Virus record (IMG/VR): IMGVR_UViG_3300035681_000076
Coordinates: 1 to 35,124 of that record
Strand: one strand, 5' to 3'
DNA from: a virus
Length of the DNA: 35,124 nucleotides
The notes beneath the pieces were generated by a model, which saw only the letters and a program-made list of their open reading frames with translations, was not told the DNA's origin and ran no database searches. The position numbers and the translations under genes were made by a program. Below, one piece after another: positions 1-35,124 of this stretch. Each line of letters opens with the position of its first letter. The stretch's first letter is position 1.

Positions 1-154
1 ATCACCAACGAACTTCTTGAAGCGACAAAAGATAATGCTGGCGCTTTCATTGACCAAGCTAAACTCAACTTGGACACAGGTTTTAGAAACATTTCTAACA
101 ACTTGGCTCAAAACTTGTTTGCTTCTGGAACTGGATCACGCGGTCAAATCGGAA
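1..154. repeat. Terminal overlap, left copy (circular junction)
   Basis: These 154 bases recur at 34971-35124 with a single difference: A at 28 here, T at 34998 there. Reading frame continues across the join, so this is best read as an assembly overlap of a circular or circularly permuted molecule of about 34,970 bp. It lies inside the capsid gene, which argues against a functional direct terminal repeat. Phages with P22-like packaging usually have permuted, terminally redundant ends that assemble this way. Confidence 0.9.
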
Positions 155-1002
155 GCATCGTTAAGTCTGGAGCTTCTTCAGCTACAACCATCACTTTGAT
201 TAACTCTGCGCAAGTAGTGCAATTCGAAGTTGGAATGTTGCTTGTTGTTTCTGCGACTGACGGAAGCTCACCATCTACTGATACAGTTCAATTGACTGCG
301 GTTAACCGCTCAACTGGCGTATTGACTGGTGTTTCTTCTACAGCTCTCGCAAGTTCACTTTCTGCTAACTGGGCAGCTAACGGCTACCTCTATGTTAACG
401 GAGATATCGGGGCTTCTGGAGCTTCTGGAACAGGCAGCTATTTGGCTGTTTCTGGTCTTGCAGCTTGGCTCCCGTTGACTGCTCCTTCTTCTGGAGATTC
501 TTTCTGGAACGTTGACCGTTCAGTAGACCCAACTCGTTTGGCTGGTGTTCGTTTCGACGGATCATCTGAAACAATAGAAGAAGCCCTCATCGACGCCGCT
601 GCTCTCGTGGCGCGCGAAGGCGGCCAACCCGATATGTGTTTCACAAACTTTGCTTCTTATGCGGCACTTGTAAAAGCCTTAGGCTCCAAGGTGCAATACG
701 TACAAGTGAAGCACGATGAGTGTGAAATTGGCTGGGCCGGGATTACGATCCATGCGGCATACGGACCAATCACTGTTGTTCCTGATCGCAACTGTCCTGC
801 TCAAACAGCATACTTGCTTTCTATGGACACATGGAAATTCCGTTCATTAGGCAAGGCACCTCACATTCTCACATACGGCCTCGAAGGGCTTGAGGGAATT
901 CGTGTCGGCAATGCAGACGCTTTGGAAATTCGTATCGGTTACTACGGGAACCTTATATGTAATGCCCCGGGCTGGAATTGTGTCGTTAGTTTAAGTCAAT
1001 GA
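1..1002 (+). CDS. Major capsid protein, C-terminal 333 residues (exon 2, continued across the circular junction)
   Basis: This is the larger part of the coat protein that forms the head shell. Frame 1 is open from base 1, and joined to 34746-34970 and exon 1 (33911-33970) it gives about 428 aa, close to the 430 aa of P22 coat protein. The C-terminal stretch with LEGLEGIRVGNADALEIRIG and the ending NAPGWNCVVSL is typical of phage coat proteins; the Ser/Thr/Gly-rich middle (about residues 140-230 of the full protein) may be an inserted surface domain. Synthesis probably starts at 33911, not at the ATG at 70. Asn codons here are 15 AAC to 4 AAT by hand count. The part after about 560 is richer in GC. 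A strong terminator follows. The exact fold family is inferred. Confidence 0.88.
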   Translation: MTNELLEATKDNAGAFIDQAKLNLDTGFRNISNNLAQNLFASGTGSRGQIGSIVKSGASSATTITLINSAQVVQFEVGMLLVVSATDGSSPSTDTVQLTAVNRSTGVLTGVSSTALASSLSANWAANGYLYVNGDIGASGASGTGSYLAVSGLAAWLPLTAPSSGDSFWNVDRSVDPTRLAGVRFDGSSETIEEALIDAAALVAREGGQPDMCFTNFASYAALVKALGSKVQYVQVKHDECEIGWAGITIHAAYGPITVVPDRNCPAQTAYLLSMDTWKFRSLGKAPHILTYGLEGLEGIRVGNADALEIRIGYYGNLICNAPGWNCVVSLSQ

Positions 1003-1100: not shown

Positions 1101-1628
1101 ATGAAGAAATGCAAAGTTAAAGACTGTAATAACAAATCAATTTGTAAAGATTTATGTAACAAGCATTATCAGCGTTTTAGAGTTTATGGAGATGTTAATT
1201 ATGTAAATTTACGTACAAGACCTAAATGTTCAGTTAAAAATTGCAACAAACCACATAAATGTCATTCATATTGTTCAACTCATTACGCTAGATATAAACG
1301 ACACGGCGACGCGTTATTTATAAATCCTAAATGCAATAGAGACGGCAAATACAAAGAACGTCACAAAAAATATCAAAAAATATGGCGTAAAAAAAATTGG
1401 CCTAAATTTTTAGCTTATTTAAAAGCAACCAAAAGGCATTTAAAACAAGCCACGCCTGTTTGGTCAGAAATTGAATTAATTAAAGAATTCTATTTAAAGT
1501 GTCCTAAGGGGTATCACGTAGATCATATAATTCCTATTAATGGTAAAAACGTTAGCGGTTTGCACGTTTTAAACAATCTTCAGTATTTACCAGCAAAAGA
1601 AAACTTAAAGAAAAGTAATAAATTCTAA
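1101..1628 (+). CDS. HNH homing-type endonuclease with two N-terminal zinc-binding repeats
   Basis: 175 aa. The protein begins with two similar Cys/His units: C4, C9, C15, C19, H22 and C43, C48, C54, C58, H61, each followed by an HY-x-R/K-rich segment and a GD. The C-terminal HNH nuclease has HVDHIIP (H139, D141, H142) and the downstream Asn-containing [13 protein letters not shown]. Such enzymes nick or cut DNA at intron or insertion sites and spread their own gene. The last 45 or so residues closely resemble those of the intron-borne HNH protein at 34198-34701, while the N-terminal halves are unrelated. The gene sits between two terminators (1038-1073 and 1676-1710), as a free-standing insertion behind the capsid gene. 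A TATAAT-like box lies just upstream, but no convincing -35 was found. Very A-rich codon use sets it apart from the capsid gene. Confidence 0.85.
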
Positions 1629-2710: not shown

Positions 2711-3718
2711 ATGGCTGCACCCGCACAACCAACGGGCTTTTGGGCTCAACAAGGCGATGGTAAATGCTACTTAAGTTGGGACCTAACAACAGGTGCTACA
2801 AGTTATAGTGTTTATCGCTCAACTGACGGAGTGAATTTTTCTAGCGTCGGAACACCTACCGTAAACGAATACACTGACACGTCTGTCACTGTAGACACAC
2901 TTTACTATTATAAAGTTGCGGCTGTTAACAGTAGCGGTACTGGACCTTATACAAGTCCACAAAACGTAATACCTACTCTTAACGGTCGATTGTCACTTGG
3001 TGAGATTCGACAACGTGCTCAACAAGCAGCCGATCTTGAAAATTCTTTATTTGTTTCAAAGCCTGAGTGGAATTTCTACATTAACCAGTCGGCCAAAGAG
3101 TTTTATGATTTACTAATTACAGCCTACGAAGATTATTTCGTAGCTCCTGTGCTAAGGTTTGCAACAAATGGTTCTTCTCAGTTTTATGATCTCCCTAATG
3201 GACAAAATTATAACGGCGTTAAGCCATTTTATAAGCTTTATGGTGTCGATTGCGGGTTGGACAATTCTAACAACGCTTGGGTGAGTTTAAAGAAGTTTGA
3301 TTTTATTCAACGCAATCGCTACGTGTTTCCGCAAATCAACTCTACATTTCTTGGCGTGTTTAATCTTCAGTATCGACTACTTGGAGATCAAATTGAATTT
3401 ATTCCGACACCTGCCGCAAATCAGTACATTGGTTTGTGGTACTTTCCACGTTTGCCAGCATTGTTAAAAGACACAGATTCACTGGATGGCTTTAACGGTT
3501 GGACTGAGTACGTGATTGTTGACGCTGCAATTAAAGCAGTTCGTAAACAAGAAGGTGATACTACTTTGTTAAATGCTCAAAAAATGATGCTTAAACAAAG
3601 AATCGAGCAAACTGCACAAAATAGAGATGCAGGACAACCTGATAATATTAGTGATACTCGAAGCTGGGGTAACCGTTATGGTACAGCCAACGGAGATGGC
3701 CCTTACGGTGGCTACTAA
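2711..3718 (+). CDS. Head-to-tail adaptor (P22 gp4-like) with an N-terminal fibronectin III domain
   Basis: 335 aa. Residues about 1-88 form a fibronectin type III domain, shown by TGFWAQQGDGKCYLSWD, then SYSVYRSTDG and LYYYKVAAVNSSGTG. From about residue 95 the sequence is helical, with LGEIRQRAQQAADLENS and WNFYINQSAKEFYDLL, and then has the beta-rich body typical of portal-attached adaptors of short-tailed phages. These proteins bind the bottom of the portal and build the site for the tail hub. The extra domain would sit on the outside of the neck and might bind host surface sugars. A good AAGGAG ribosome site precedes the ATG. The adaptor assignment rests on sequence style and gene order. 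Confidence 0.72.
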   Translation: MAAPAQPTGFWAQQGDGKCYLSWDLTTGATSYSVYRSTDGVNFSSVGTPTVNEYTDTSVTVDTLYYYKVAAVNSSGTGPYTSPQNVIPTLNGRLSLGEIRQRAQQAADLENSLFVSKPEWNFYINQSAKEFYDLLITAYEDYFVAPVLRFATNGSSQFYDLPNGQNYNGVKPFYKLYGVDCGLDNSNNAWVSLKKFDFIQRNRYVFPQINSTFLGVFNLQYRLLGDQIEFIPTPAANQYIGLWYFPRLPALLKDTDSLDGFNGWTEYVIVDAAIKAVRKQEGDTTLLNAQKMMLKQRIEQTAQNRDAGQPDNISDTRSWGNRYGTANGDGPYGGY

Positions 3719-16711: not shown

Positions 16712-16787
<76 letters not shown>

Positions 16788-30760: not shown

Positions 30761-31006
30761 ATGGATGTTAAAAATGCGCGAGATTTGGCGAAAATCATCG
30801 CTTTATGTAGAAAAAACAATGTAAAAAGCTGCAAAATCGGTGCAGAATCAATCGAATTCACACTTTCAGATGTGCAACCTGTTAAACAAAGAAAGTCTAA
30901 AGCAATTATTGATGAGGCAACAGACGACAAAGCTGTTCCTACTTATTCCCCAGAAGACATTCTCTTTTGGTCAGCTTCTATGAATAACGCTGTAGGTGGA
31001 AACTAA
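30761..31006 (+). CDS. Small conserved protein upstream of the portal gene
   Basis: 81 aa. A helical first half (NARDLAKIIALCRKNNVKSC) followed by KIGAESIEFTLSDVQP, a basic linker and a C-terminal YSPEDILFWSASMNN. The family is recurrent directly before portal genes in uncultured short-tailed phages. Its final TAA overlaps the portal ATG (TAATG), so it is translated with it. Function unknown; an assembly helper or portal cofactor is likely. Confidence 0.65.
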   Translation: MDVKNARDLAKIIALCRKNNVKSCKIGAESIEFTLSDVQPVKQRKSKAIIDEATDDKAVPTYSPEDILFWSASMNNAVGGN

Positions 31007-32928
31007 TGCCAAAAATTACTCGTAAAGAATCAAACGCAGACGTTGTATACGCTAAAACTAAACAGGAAAAACAAAAGACCCCACAAGGTTGGAAGTGGTG
31101 GAATGCCAGAACAAATGACGAGCTAAAGAATCAAGTTCTTGAGAGCGCGACATTCTTAAAGACTCAGCAACAGTATCGCTTCACGCAAGCTGGTATTTAT
31201 GCAAAGCTTTACGGCAATCAACCCCTTTATAACTTCGCTGGTAGCAACCTTGGTAAAATCATGGGTAGCACTCAAAACCTTCCTGTTGATCGTCCCACAA
31301 TGAACGTCGTGCAAAGCTGTATCGACACACTTGTTAGCCGTATTTCACAAGCTAAGCCTAGACCTTTGTTCTTAACTGACAACGGAGATTACAAACAACG
31401 CAAGCTTGCTAAGCAAATGAACGACTTTATTAGCGGCGAGCTCTATCAAACTAAAGCGTATGATTTGGGTGAGCTTATGCTTAGAGACGGCGCTGTGTTT
31501 GGTACAGGCTGTTTAAAGATTTATGAGACTGACGATCATAAGATTGCTCTTGAGCGAAAGCTACTCACAGAAGTGTTTGTTGACCCCAACGATGCCTATT
31601 ACGGCAAGCCCACGCAAATGTTTGAGCTAAAGCTTGTTGATCGGTCAATTTTGCAAGAGTTATTTCCTAAGTACAAGTCAGACATCGCACTAGCTGAGCA
31701 AGCTTTTCCTGAAAACTCAGCCGATGGTAACAGAAGTATCTCAGACCAAATCATTATTGTTGAAGCTTGGCATTTGCCTAGCAGCAAAACATCAAATGAC
31801 GGCCGTCACGTAATTATCTGCTCAGCTGGCAAAATCTTAGATGAGCCTTATACAAAAGACTATTTCCCGTTTGCGTTCTTCCATTACTCTCCACGTCCTT
31901 TAGGATTTTGGGGTCAAGGACTTGCCGAACAGCTTATGGGAACCCAATCTCAGATCAATGAAATGCTTATCACTATTTCAAGATCCATTAATTTGGTGGG
32001 TGTGCCTCGTGTGTTTGTTGAAGCTGGATCAAAAGTTGGCAAAGCGTCACTAAACAACAACATCGGAGCTATTGTTCCTTATTCTGGAACTAAGCCTATT
32101 TACGAAGTTGCTCCTTGTATTCCACAAGAAATGTACGCGCAGCTTGAGCGTCTTATTCAATTTGCTTATCAACAATCAGGTATCAGTGCTCTTGCAGCCG
32201 CTGCTCAAAAGCCTGCGGGTCTTAATTCAGGTGAAGCAATTAGAAGCTATGACGATCTACAATCTGACAGGTTTGCAGCATTACAAAAACGATACGCAAA
32301 TATTTACGAAGAACTTGCGTATAAGTTTTGTGACATGGCTAAAGACATTGCAGAGCGCACAGGTAGCTATCAAACAATCTATCCAAACAAAGACGGCACT
32401 AAAGAAATTAACTTGCCTGAGATTCACGATCTAAATGATCCTTTTGTTATTCAATGCTACGACACTTCTAGCTTGCCCAAGGAACCTGCGGGTCGATTAC
32501 AAAAGGTAACAGAAATGATGCAAGCAGGACTTGTATCACCTGAAGAAGGTCGCAGGCTTTTAGACTTCCCTGACATTGAGCAAGTTGATAAGCTTGCTAA
32601 TGCTAGTGAGGAGAGAATACTAAAAATCCTCGATGAGATTGTAGATAGTGGCAAGTACACGCCACCAGATCCTTTTATGGATTTGTTGTTAGCTGAAAAG
32701 CTTGTAGCTCAGTATTACAACTTATATGTCGCTGCTAATTTAGAGGAATCTAAAGCACAAAAGCTGCGTGATTTTTTCACACAAATTCAAACATTAAAGC
32801 AAGCAGCTATGCCGCCTCCACCTCCTATGATGTCACCTGACATGATGGCTGGAGCAGGAGCGCCAGTTCAAGGAGTACCAGAAGCACGTCCAGTTAGTGA
32901 CCTGCTAAGTAACGTGCCTATTGGTTAA
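31006..32928 (+). CDS. Portal protein
   Basis: 640 aa, in the P22-like size range. Features include a basic N-terminus with RFTQAGIYAKLYGNQ, the region MNVVQSCIDTLVSRISQAKP typical of portals, GELMLRDGAVFGTGCLKIYE (the wing), LLTEVFVDPNDAYYG, PFAFFHYSPRPLGFWGQGLA followed by QLMGTQSQINEML (the clip and stem region), and a helical crown. The C-terminus is Pro/Met-rich (MPPPPPMMSPDMMAGAGA). Twelve copies would form the DNA gate at one head corner, docking the terminase and later the adaptor of 2711. It begins on the TAATG overlap with the previous gene. Confidence 0.92.
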   Translation: MPKITRKESNADVVYAKTKQEKQKTPQGWKWWNARTNDELKNQVLESATFLKTQQQYRFTQAGIYAKLYGNQPLYNFAGSNLGKIMGSTQNLPVDRPTMNVVQSCIDTLVSRISQAKPRPLFLTDNGDYKQRKLAKQMNDFISGELYQTKAYDLGELMLRDGAVFGTGCLKIYETDDHKIALERKLLTEVFVDPNDAYYGKPTQMFELKLVDRSILQELFPKYKSDIALAEQAFPENSADGNRSISDQIIIVEAWHLPSSKTSNDGRHVIICSAGKILDEPYTKDYFPFAFFHYSPRPLGFWGQGLAEQLMGTQSQINEMLITISRSINLVGVPRVFVEAGSKVGKASLNNNIGAIVPYSGTKPIYEVAPCIPQEMYAQLERLIQFAYQQSGISALAAAAQKPAGLNSGEAIRSYDDLQSDRFAALQKRYANIYEELAYKFCDMAKDIAERTGSYQTIYPNKDGTKEINLPEIHDLNDPFVIQCYDTSSLPKEPAGRLQKVTEMMQAGLVSPEEGRRLLDFPDIEQVDKLANASEERILKILDEIVDSGKYTPPDPFMDLLLAEKLVAQYYNLYVAANLEESKAQKLRDFFTQIQTLKQAAMPPPPPMMSPDMMAGAGAPVQGVPEARPVSDLLSNVPIG

Positions 32929-33910: not shown

Positions 33911-33970
33911 ATGGCTGTTTATGCAAACGTATCGAACCAGGTAGCAGCGTTAAAAGAGCTTTATACCGGT
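33911..33970 (+). CDS. Major capsid protein, exon 1 (20 residues)
   Basis: It reads MAVYANVSNQVAALKELYTG. ATG 33911 has a modest AGG site. Left unspliced, the frame runs into a TAA at 34001-34003. Splicing after GGT 33970 to GAC 34746 gives LKELYTG-DDYLKDLVYKKN, which restores a continuous coat protein of about 428 aa. Exon positions are inferred from the intron structure and frame, not from RNA. Confidence 0.85.
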
Positions 33971-34745
33971 AAATCATTGCCGCTTAATGGGGTAACTCAT
34001 TAATGAATAATCGGGCAAAATCGGTGAAGGCTGAGATCGCTAATACCGAGGTAAACTACAAGTGTAAAAACTTTAGTCACTGTAACGCGTACTTATTGAA
34101 ACTTAATAATCTAAACAATTATTCAGAATATAATATAAGCAAGAGTGCCCGACATCTTAACGAGATGAAAATGTACGCTGAACTAACTTGAATATATATG
34201 AAAAAGAAATGCTCTAATTGTAATAACGTATTTAAAATGGAAAGTTTTTATTTCCATAATAACCGTTATGACTGTTGGTGCAAAACTTGTAGAAAAGCAT
34301 ATATAAAAGCTTATCAAGCAAAAAATGCTGATAAAACTTTGGAAATTAAAAGACAATACGTTTTACGAAATCCTGAAAAAGTAGCTAAAACAAAAGCTGC
34401 TTATAGGAAAAAAAATAGAATAAAACTTAGAGAAAAAAATAAAGTTTACCAAAAGCAAAACAAAAAAGCAGTTCTTGCTAGAACTAGGCTTTATCAAGCA
34501 TCTAAGTTAAATGCGACTCCTGATTGGTTATCAAAAAAAGCTATAAATGAAATAAAAGCTATTTATGAAAAATGTCCAAAAGGATTTCACGTAGATCATA
34601 TTGTACCTTTGAGAGGAAAAAATATTAGCGGACTTCATGTTCCATGGAATTTGCAATATTTACCTGCTTCAAAAAATTTTAAAAAATCCAATCGCTTTTG
34701 AAAAGTTAGAAGCTAGAGATAAAAAACTTTAGCGGTAACAAATTG
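33971..34745 (+). mobile_element. Group I intron in the major capsid gene
   Basis: 775 nt with the hallmarks of a self-splicing group I intron. P1 pairs exon CGGT plus intron AA with TTGCCG and puts a U-G pair at the 5' splice site (33970). P2 is TTAATG/CATTAA. P3 is TCGGGCA/TGCCCGA (34011-34017 with 34146-34152). The P4-P6 core lies between, with the familiar CGGTGAAGGCTGAGATCGCT segment followed by AATACCG. P8 is CATCT/AGATG (34153-34157 with 34163-34167). P7 is TTCAG/CTGAA (34122-34126 with 34178-34182). P9 is CTAACTT/AAGTTAG (34183-34189 with 34703-34709). The intron ends in G (34745). The HNH gene fits in the P9 loop, leaving the core intact. Confidence 0.93.
34198..34701 (+). CDS. Intron-encoded HNH homing endonuclease
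   Basis: 167 aa, lying in the P9 loop of the intron. The N-terminus has a CxxC...CxxC zinc site (C5, C8, C28, C31) and then a long Lys/Arg-rich helical stretch (residues 33-100) likely to grip DNA. The C-terminal HNH nuclease has HVDHIVP (H131, D133, H134) and [13 protein letters not shown] with N151. It would nick intron-free coat genes so that the intron is copied in. Its C-terminal 45 residues are very like those of the HNH protein at 1101-1628, while the N-termini differ. Ribosome site is weak, as usual for intron ORFs. Confidence 0.9.
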
Positions 34746-35124
34746 GACGATTATTTAAAAGATCTTGTTTATAAAAAGAATCCGTTCCTTGCGCTAGTCC
34801 CGAAAGACGAGAGTCCGAGTGGTTTTGCCGGGAAGTACATCCCTGTTCCTATCATTTATGGCACAGGCCAAGGACGATCACACACTTTTGCAAATGCGCA
34901 AAACCAACAAACTGCACCCGCAGACGTTGCGTTCTTCGTATACCGCATTAGTGATTATCAACTCGTAACCATCACCAACGAACTTCTTGAAGCGACATAA
35001 GATAATGCTGGCGCTTTCATTGACCAAGCTAAACTCAACTTGGACACAGGTTTTAGAAACATTTCTAACAACTTGGCTCAAAACTTGTTTGCTTCTGGAA
35101 CTGGATCACGCGGTCAAATCGGAA
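34746..35124 (+). CDS. Major capsid protein, exon 2 first part (runs off the window end)
   Basis: From GAC 34746 it reads DDYLKDLVYKKNPFLALVPK, then ESPSGFAGKYIPVPIIYGTG and ADVAFFVYRISDYQLVTITN. The opening is the typical coat protein N-arm. The first 75 codons (34746-34970) join base 1 in frame to the remaining 333 codons. In this copy, a TAA at 34998-35000 stops the frame after LLEAT; the matching left copy has AAA at that codon and continues. The stop is probably an assembly error or minority variant. The TTG at 34743 is intron sequence, not a start. Confidence 0.85.
34971..35124. repeat. Terminal overlap, right copy (circular junction)
   Basis: Matches 1-154 at 153 of 154 positions. The one difference (T 34998 against A 28) creates a stop codon in the coat gene. 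This copy should be removed when closing the circle. Confidence 0.9.

Follow-up and report, generated by a model that had tools for sequence, protein, structure and literature searches.

The major capsid gene of this phage raises the question of how its coat protein can be made, as the reading frame closes after 20 codons and reopens 775 nt later. Its relatives raise a second question, since some carry inserts that are far shorter and leave no room for a ribozyme.

The interrupted capsid gene

The window, meaning the whole stretch of 35,124 nt that was analysed, is a virus record in which the opening 154 bases recur at the end with one mismatch (34971-35124 against 1-154). Exon 1 of the major capsid gene (33911-33970, plus strand) comprises codons 1-20, MAVYANVSNQVAALKELYTG, from the ATG at 33911 to a terminal GGU. 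In-frame stops follow directly after the 5' cut (KSLPLNGVTH and then two stops), so unspliced RNA cannot give coat protein. The reading frame reopens at 34746, where the first part of exon 2 (34746-34970, plus strand) starts with DDYLKDLVYKKNP. Because the two ends of the record repeat each other, exon 2 passes from 34970 over to position 1 and from there runs to its stop (1-1002, plus strand), this part matching SU10_MCP (Pfam, E 4e-9). Joined, the two exons encode 428 aa plus stop, and the protein matches the SU10 capsid family in Pfam, making this an SU10-type major capsid gene. The single mismatch of the terminal overlap (A28 against T34998) falls within exon 2, with the T of the terminal copy giving an in-frame TAA where the other copy reads AAA; the TAA is probably an end error or a minor variant. 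The portal gene lies upstream of the capsid gene (31006-32928), and a tRNA-Asn (GTT) gene is found at 16712-16787 on the minus strand.

A scan of IMG/VR yielded 80 capsid relatives, and tblastn of the capsid in cultured phages and in species genomes found no relative. The closest uninterrupted relatives read KELYTGDDYMKDLVYKK exactly across the junction, and the closest insert-free genes read through KELYTG to DDY at the same point. A spliced-protein alignment of all capsid loci that used no splice-site rule independently places a 775-nt insert at 33971-34745. The 20 N-terminal residues encoded by exon 1 are conserved in uninterrupted homologues, and in L041, whose capsid segments are 93-100% identical to those of the window, the intron site is empty. 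Terminase relatives (15 loci) matched without long inserts, in comparisons made outside the spliced-alignment census.

All elements of the intron (33971-34745, 775 nt) lie on the plus strand, and its boundaries follow from the uninterrupted homologues: the 5' cut falls after U33970, the last intron base is G34745, and splicing restores the frame. P1 (33967-33982) pairs the exon bases CGGU at 33967-33970 with the guide GCCG at 33979-33982 in four contiguous pairs, with U33970.G33979 at the cut, and P2 (33984-34003) folds as a hairpin. In P3 (34011-34152), 34011-34016 pairs with 34147-34152, with double changes in 6/6 pairs. P4 and P5 (34021-34049) pair 34021-34025 with 34045-34049 and 34029-34031 with 34039-34041, respectively, and show covariation, while P6 and its extension (34050-34081) pair 34050-34052 with 34079-34081 and 34055-34060 with 34072-34077 (double changes in 8/9 pairs). 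P7 (34087-34178; 34087-34091 with 34174-34178) forms a pseudoknot with P3 and is 100% paired, two of its five pairs having double changes. Covariation is also seen in P7.1 and P7.2 (34092-34139; 34092-34096 with 34135-34139 and 34102-34106 with 34122-34126) and in P8 (34153-34167; 34153-34157 with 34163-34167). P7.1 and P7.2 are a mark of subgroup IA. The P9 pairing (34183-34709), read from the sequence, joins CTAACTT at 34183-34189 to AAGTTAG at 34703-34709 and encloses a nuclease gene; a further 3' hairpin follows at 34712-34733 (z -5.05). P10 is imperfect, with two contiguous pairs, and both it and the P1 of four contiguous pairs are weaker than in most relatives. A U before the insert and a G at its end can be placed, with a freedom of ±2 nt, for all 58 full inserts of the capsid gene family.

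The core was aligned with those of related introns (37 introns, P7 added to the structure by hand). Across its 43 pairs, 96.3% are paired and 34 have changed on both sides; the covariation score was 0.638 against 0.181 when shuffled, and none of 500 shuffles reached the observed value on any of five measures. Compensatory changes back P3, P4, P5, P6, P7, P7.1, P7.2 and P8, the P3/P7 pseudoknot included. RNAalifold unaided recovers all of these except the pseudoknotted P7. A model built from the core alignment scores the window at 154.8 bits (a training member) and an element of a C. difficile phage, outside the training set, at 139 bits. This model does not pick up the td intron, a T4-type intron that served as positive control and whose locus was found with a short probe matching T-even td genes exactly. 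The Rfam search proposed earlier (Intron_gpI) gave no intron match for the window or its relatives at gathering or permissive thresholds, with matches under the gathering scores taken as chance, but the td control went equally unmatched, which leaves this search uninformative.

A preliminary description had placed a group I intron after codon 20 of this gene, and uninterrupted homologues, spliced alignment and core covariation all agree with it. Its helices P1, P2, P3, P7, P8 and P9 were all found, with compensatory changes in P3, P7 and P8, as were the U-G pair at the 5' splice site and the terminal G. The exact joining of frames into a 428-aa coat protein holds as well, the junction being that of uninterrupted homologues. 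Its arithmetic and coordinates stand (775 nt), although 33911, given as the start of the feature, is the start codon and the intron begins at 33971. We regard the insert as almost certainly a mobile group I (IA-like) self-splicing intron with an HNH homing endonuclease in its P9 loop, set in an SU10-type capsid gene; its splicing, nuclease activity and homing in vivo are predicted from sequence. The core would accept P1, formed by the exon end CGGU and the guide GCCG, in the transcript; cleavage after U33970 by a free guanosine would be followed by attack of the exon 1 end after G34745, giving the mRNA of the 428-aa coat protein. The dependence of coat expression on splicing, also put forward earlier, is borne out by the stops directly after the cut, insofar as splicing occurs as predicted.

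An intron-split phage capsid gene is an already known arrangement. In mycobacteriophage LittleE, RT-PCR and protein sequencing demonstrated that an intron is spliced out of the major capsid gene (PMC3706429), and with this precedent the present intron is less unusual than the preliminary description assumed. The LittleE intron is likewise group I-like, of similar size (819 bp) and equipped with a nuclease ORF, and its 5' exon ends in U and the intron in G (PMC3706429). It differs in that phage and capsid are unrelated and the nuclease is LAGLIDADG-like and on the other strand; mini-introns are not described for it in the parts of the report drawn on here (PMC3706429). In the crAss-like phage cr111_1 (L352, 1055-3131), the capsid gene is annotated in two pieces around an ORF, and the DNA at the break resembles the window's intron (71% over 126 bases of the latter), although this phage belongs to another group.

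Nuclease genes and likely intron mobility

The P9 loop holds an HNH endonuclease gene (P0001, 167 aa, 34198-34701, plus strand), which matches PHROG 1035, endonuclease VII, at E 9e-17 and phrog_2340 at E 5e-8. It has about 80 relatives in IMG/VR, and a search of Pfam gave no endonuclease match. A same-site intron in L003 (L003:2378-3003) has a core 98% identical to that of the window over 214 nt, whereas the 300 nt upstream of the capsid gene are just 82% identical between the two. This contrast between core and flank argues that the intron likely homed recently. The nuclease ORF in the P9 of the L003 intron has no meaningful blastp match to the window's nuclease, and the comparison of the two loci fits a recent transfer of the intron with exchange of its nuclease.

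Among the phages of this group, the capsid gene is a hotspot for introns. A second HNH-type nuclease gene (1101-1628, plus strand) lies directly after the window's capsid gene, outside any recognised intron, and its product is 49% identical to the intron nuclease over residues 74-167. The capsid gene at L041:2828-4573 has three compact introns, which belong to another group I type (GCGATAGTCTGAAC core), and in L226 and L300 the inserts after codon 14 are introns that, read by eye, carry a GIY-YIG-looking ORF before the core. Members of the window's intron family also occur within genes that look like those of a terminase, a helicase and another capsid protein (L163, L166 and L170).

Mini-inserts in related capsid genes

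Relatives of the window's capsid gene are interrupted by 31 distinct inserts of 30-59 nt, here called minis, one or two per gene; the window itself has none. Full introns, by comparison, measure 190-890 nt; L297, for example, combines a 33-nt mini with a 249-nt intron. Of the 142 distinct capsid genes, 97 are free of both kinds of insert, 12 contain full introns only and 33 contain both. After thinning at 90% identity, 30 genes have both, none a mini alone, 12 a full intron alone and 88 neither (Fisher p=4e-20). On the capsid tree, 23 changes of the mini state are counted, and of 15 independent pairs on that tree about 14 associate the full intron with the mini and none shows the opposite (median p 1e-4). 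The order is equally constant: a full intron lies downstream in 36/36 mini placements, at a median distance of 10 codons, and in genes with one mini and one full intron the mini is upstream in 21/21. An uninterrupted relative at ≥85% protein identity exists for 30 of the 31 mini-bearing genes compared, which indicates that minis were gained or lost recently. The loci are all metagenome contigs, some of them closely related, and the mini-bearing capsid genes are those of L036, L048, L079, L172, L174, L176-L178, L181, L186, L190, L198, L199, L204, L226, L230, L235, L238, L243, L244, L251, L256, L269, L271, L277, L296, L297 and L299-L301.

The minis have a common layout: an inner guide pairs with the 5' exon and forms a U.G pair at the cut, and the stretch immediately preceding the guide pairs with the first bases of the 3' exon. 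In L079, the exon end AAAGCCCU pairs with the guide GGGGCUUU, the preceding CCGUC pairs with the downstream exon start GACGG, and the insert ends in UUUG. The mini of L048 has AGACGAU with GUCGUCU, AUUCUUU with AAAGAAU and a terminal GUG, and that of L036 has ACUUGGU with GCCAAGU, UUGUAG with CUACAA and a terminal AUG. All 32 distinct short inserts (the 31 minis and one of 6 nt) can be placed with a U before and a G at the end, with a freedom of ±2 nt, and 25 of the 32 end in UG, as do 52 of the 58 full introns (p=2e-7 for the minis). Summed P1 and P10 scores average 10.6 against 2.5 in shuffles that had the same freedom in guide position, not in cut placement, and p≤0.01 was obtained for 24 of the 32 short inserts; since the register search picks the best guide, single scores are flattering. 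A mini's own guide reaches 6.87 of 8 in P1 and 4.77 of 5 in P10, compared with 3.76 and 2.11 for the guides of other sites. Synonymous exon changes are mirrored within the mini: L244 has AAAGUCCU with GGGACUUU where L079 has AAAGCCCU with GGGGCUUU, and for P10, L269 has GAUGG with CCAUC in place of GACGG with CCGUC. The pairings are less regular in four minis at one site (L172, L190, L198 and L181), which by eye need a bulged U in P1, and in several at the NESP site, which have one mismatch within P1.

Mini lengths are not multiples of three in 18 of 31 cases, and the remaining exons of mini-bearing genes contain no stop in any of them. As 30-59 nt leave no room for a catalytic core of their own, the minis are by definition not autonomous group I introns. 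The shortest insert, UAACUG at L003:3091-3096, contains a stop and has no room even for a guide. A fitting guide (P1 of 7 bp, P10 of 8 bp) is present at 3149, inside the downstream intron, where 0.01 are expected per shuffled region; the full intron there thus seems to carry two guides.

A proposed shared core and the alternatives

The reading that we consider probable is that the minis are natural non-autonomous group I introns, with a P1 guide and P10 of their own and usually a terminal UG, that are removed by the core of the full intron downstream in the same transcript. From co-occurrence and order we infer the neighbouring core as the splicer. This core would fold while still in the transcript and accept the P1 helices of upstream minis in addition to its own. 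Self-excision would release the full intron from its tether, a possible reason for the constant upstream position of the minis. Loss of the core from one of two full introns in a gene could give rise to a mini; as such an origin predicts, the GFAG site is occupied by full introns in some phages and by minis in others. Exon skipping, in which the 5' site of a mini would be joined to the downstream 3' site, was rejected, since the exon partner of P10 is the one that immediately follows the mini.

Several alternatives bear on whether these inserts are spliced at all. The window's insert might be the dead remnant of an intron in a defective phage, or the coat protein might start downstream of it; its short P1 and the TAA at 34998 would suit this reading, but the TAA is confined to one overlap copy, the core shows complete pairing and has a 98% identical counterpart in an independent phage, and uninterrupted homologues keep the 20 N-terminal residues, which together leave it hardly credible. 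It is somewhat less improbable, yet still very unlikely, that the minis are assembly errors or inactivating insertions in broken genes. Their exclusive origin in metagenome contigs could suggest as much, but there are 31 distinct examples, four records (L079-L082) have the same mini-bearing 1.7 kb in common, the exons are stop-free throughout, guide letters track synonymous changes in their own exons and the mini state has changed 23 times on the tree. Ribosomes might instead bypass the minis, as in T4 gene 60. The similar size, the hairpin at the 5' edge and the early stop codons recall that case, but take-off and landing codons match in 0/31 minis, a mismatch on which bypassing was rejected, and P10, the terminal UG in 25 of 32 and the strict need for a downstream full intron would go unexplained; we give this almost no weight.

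The strongest competitor, although itself unlikely, is that the minis are very small self-splicing introns and share nothing with full introns except insertion hotspots. Group I-like introns of 63-75 nt that have P1 and P10 but lack most of the core have been reported to self-splice in Phialophora SSU rDNA (PMC3160393). Those introns lie in rRNA, end in U, are reported to keep P7 and splice without a named helper (PMC3160393), whereas the minis are shorter still at 30-59 nt, can be placed to end in G rather than in the terminal U of the Phialophora type, and always lie upstream of a full intron. Independent splicing predicts neither the absence of minis without a full intron (30 against 0) nor the downstream position of that intron in 36/36 placements, and the 6-nt insert of L003 has its guide in the downstream intron. 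Removal by a neighbouring core, as in the reading preferred here, has man-made counterparts in engineered trans-excision-splicing ribozymes and spliceozymes, whose group I core cuts out a short internal segment through P1 and P10/P9.0 contacts, and introns of 64 and 100 nt have been removed in this manner (PMC6155759, PMC4094466). In these the guide is in the ribozyme (PMC6155759, PMC4094466), whereas the phage minis contain their own; only L003 has the layout of the engineered trans-excision-splicing ribozyme.

The core-less mini-introns of the relatives are the new part of these observations; open-access full texts yielded no account of mini-introns in phages or of a group I core that serves neighbours lacking one, and such an account may exist elsewhere. 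Owing to the window's intron, production of the main virion protein hinges on ribozyme splicing, an arrangement that is known but uncommon. If the shared-core reading is true, short stop-containing inserts in phage genes may be introns and not errors, a warning to annotators. That ribozyme-less introns are confined to genes in which a neighbouring intron has kept its ribozyme suggests that group I splicing can be shared. Were this so, these capsid genes would offer a natural example, open to testing, of several introns spliced by a single RNA enzyme, which models of spliceosome origin assume as a step; a core with several introns to serve would be a group I counterpart of the spliceosome and of reduced group II-derived introns.
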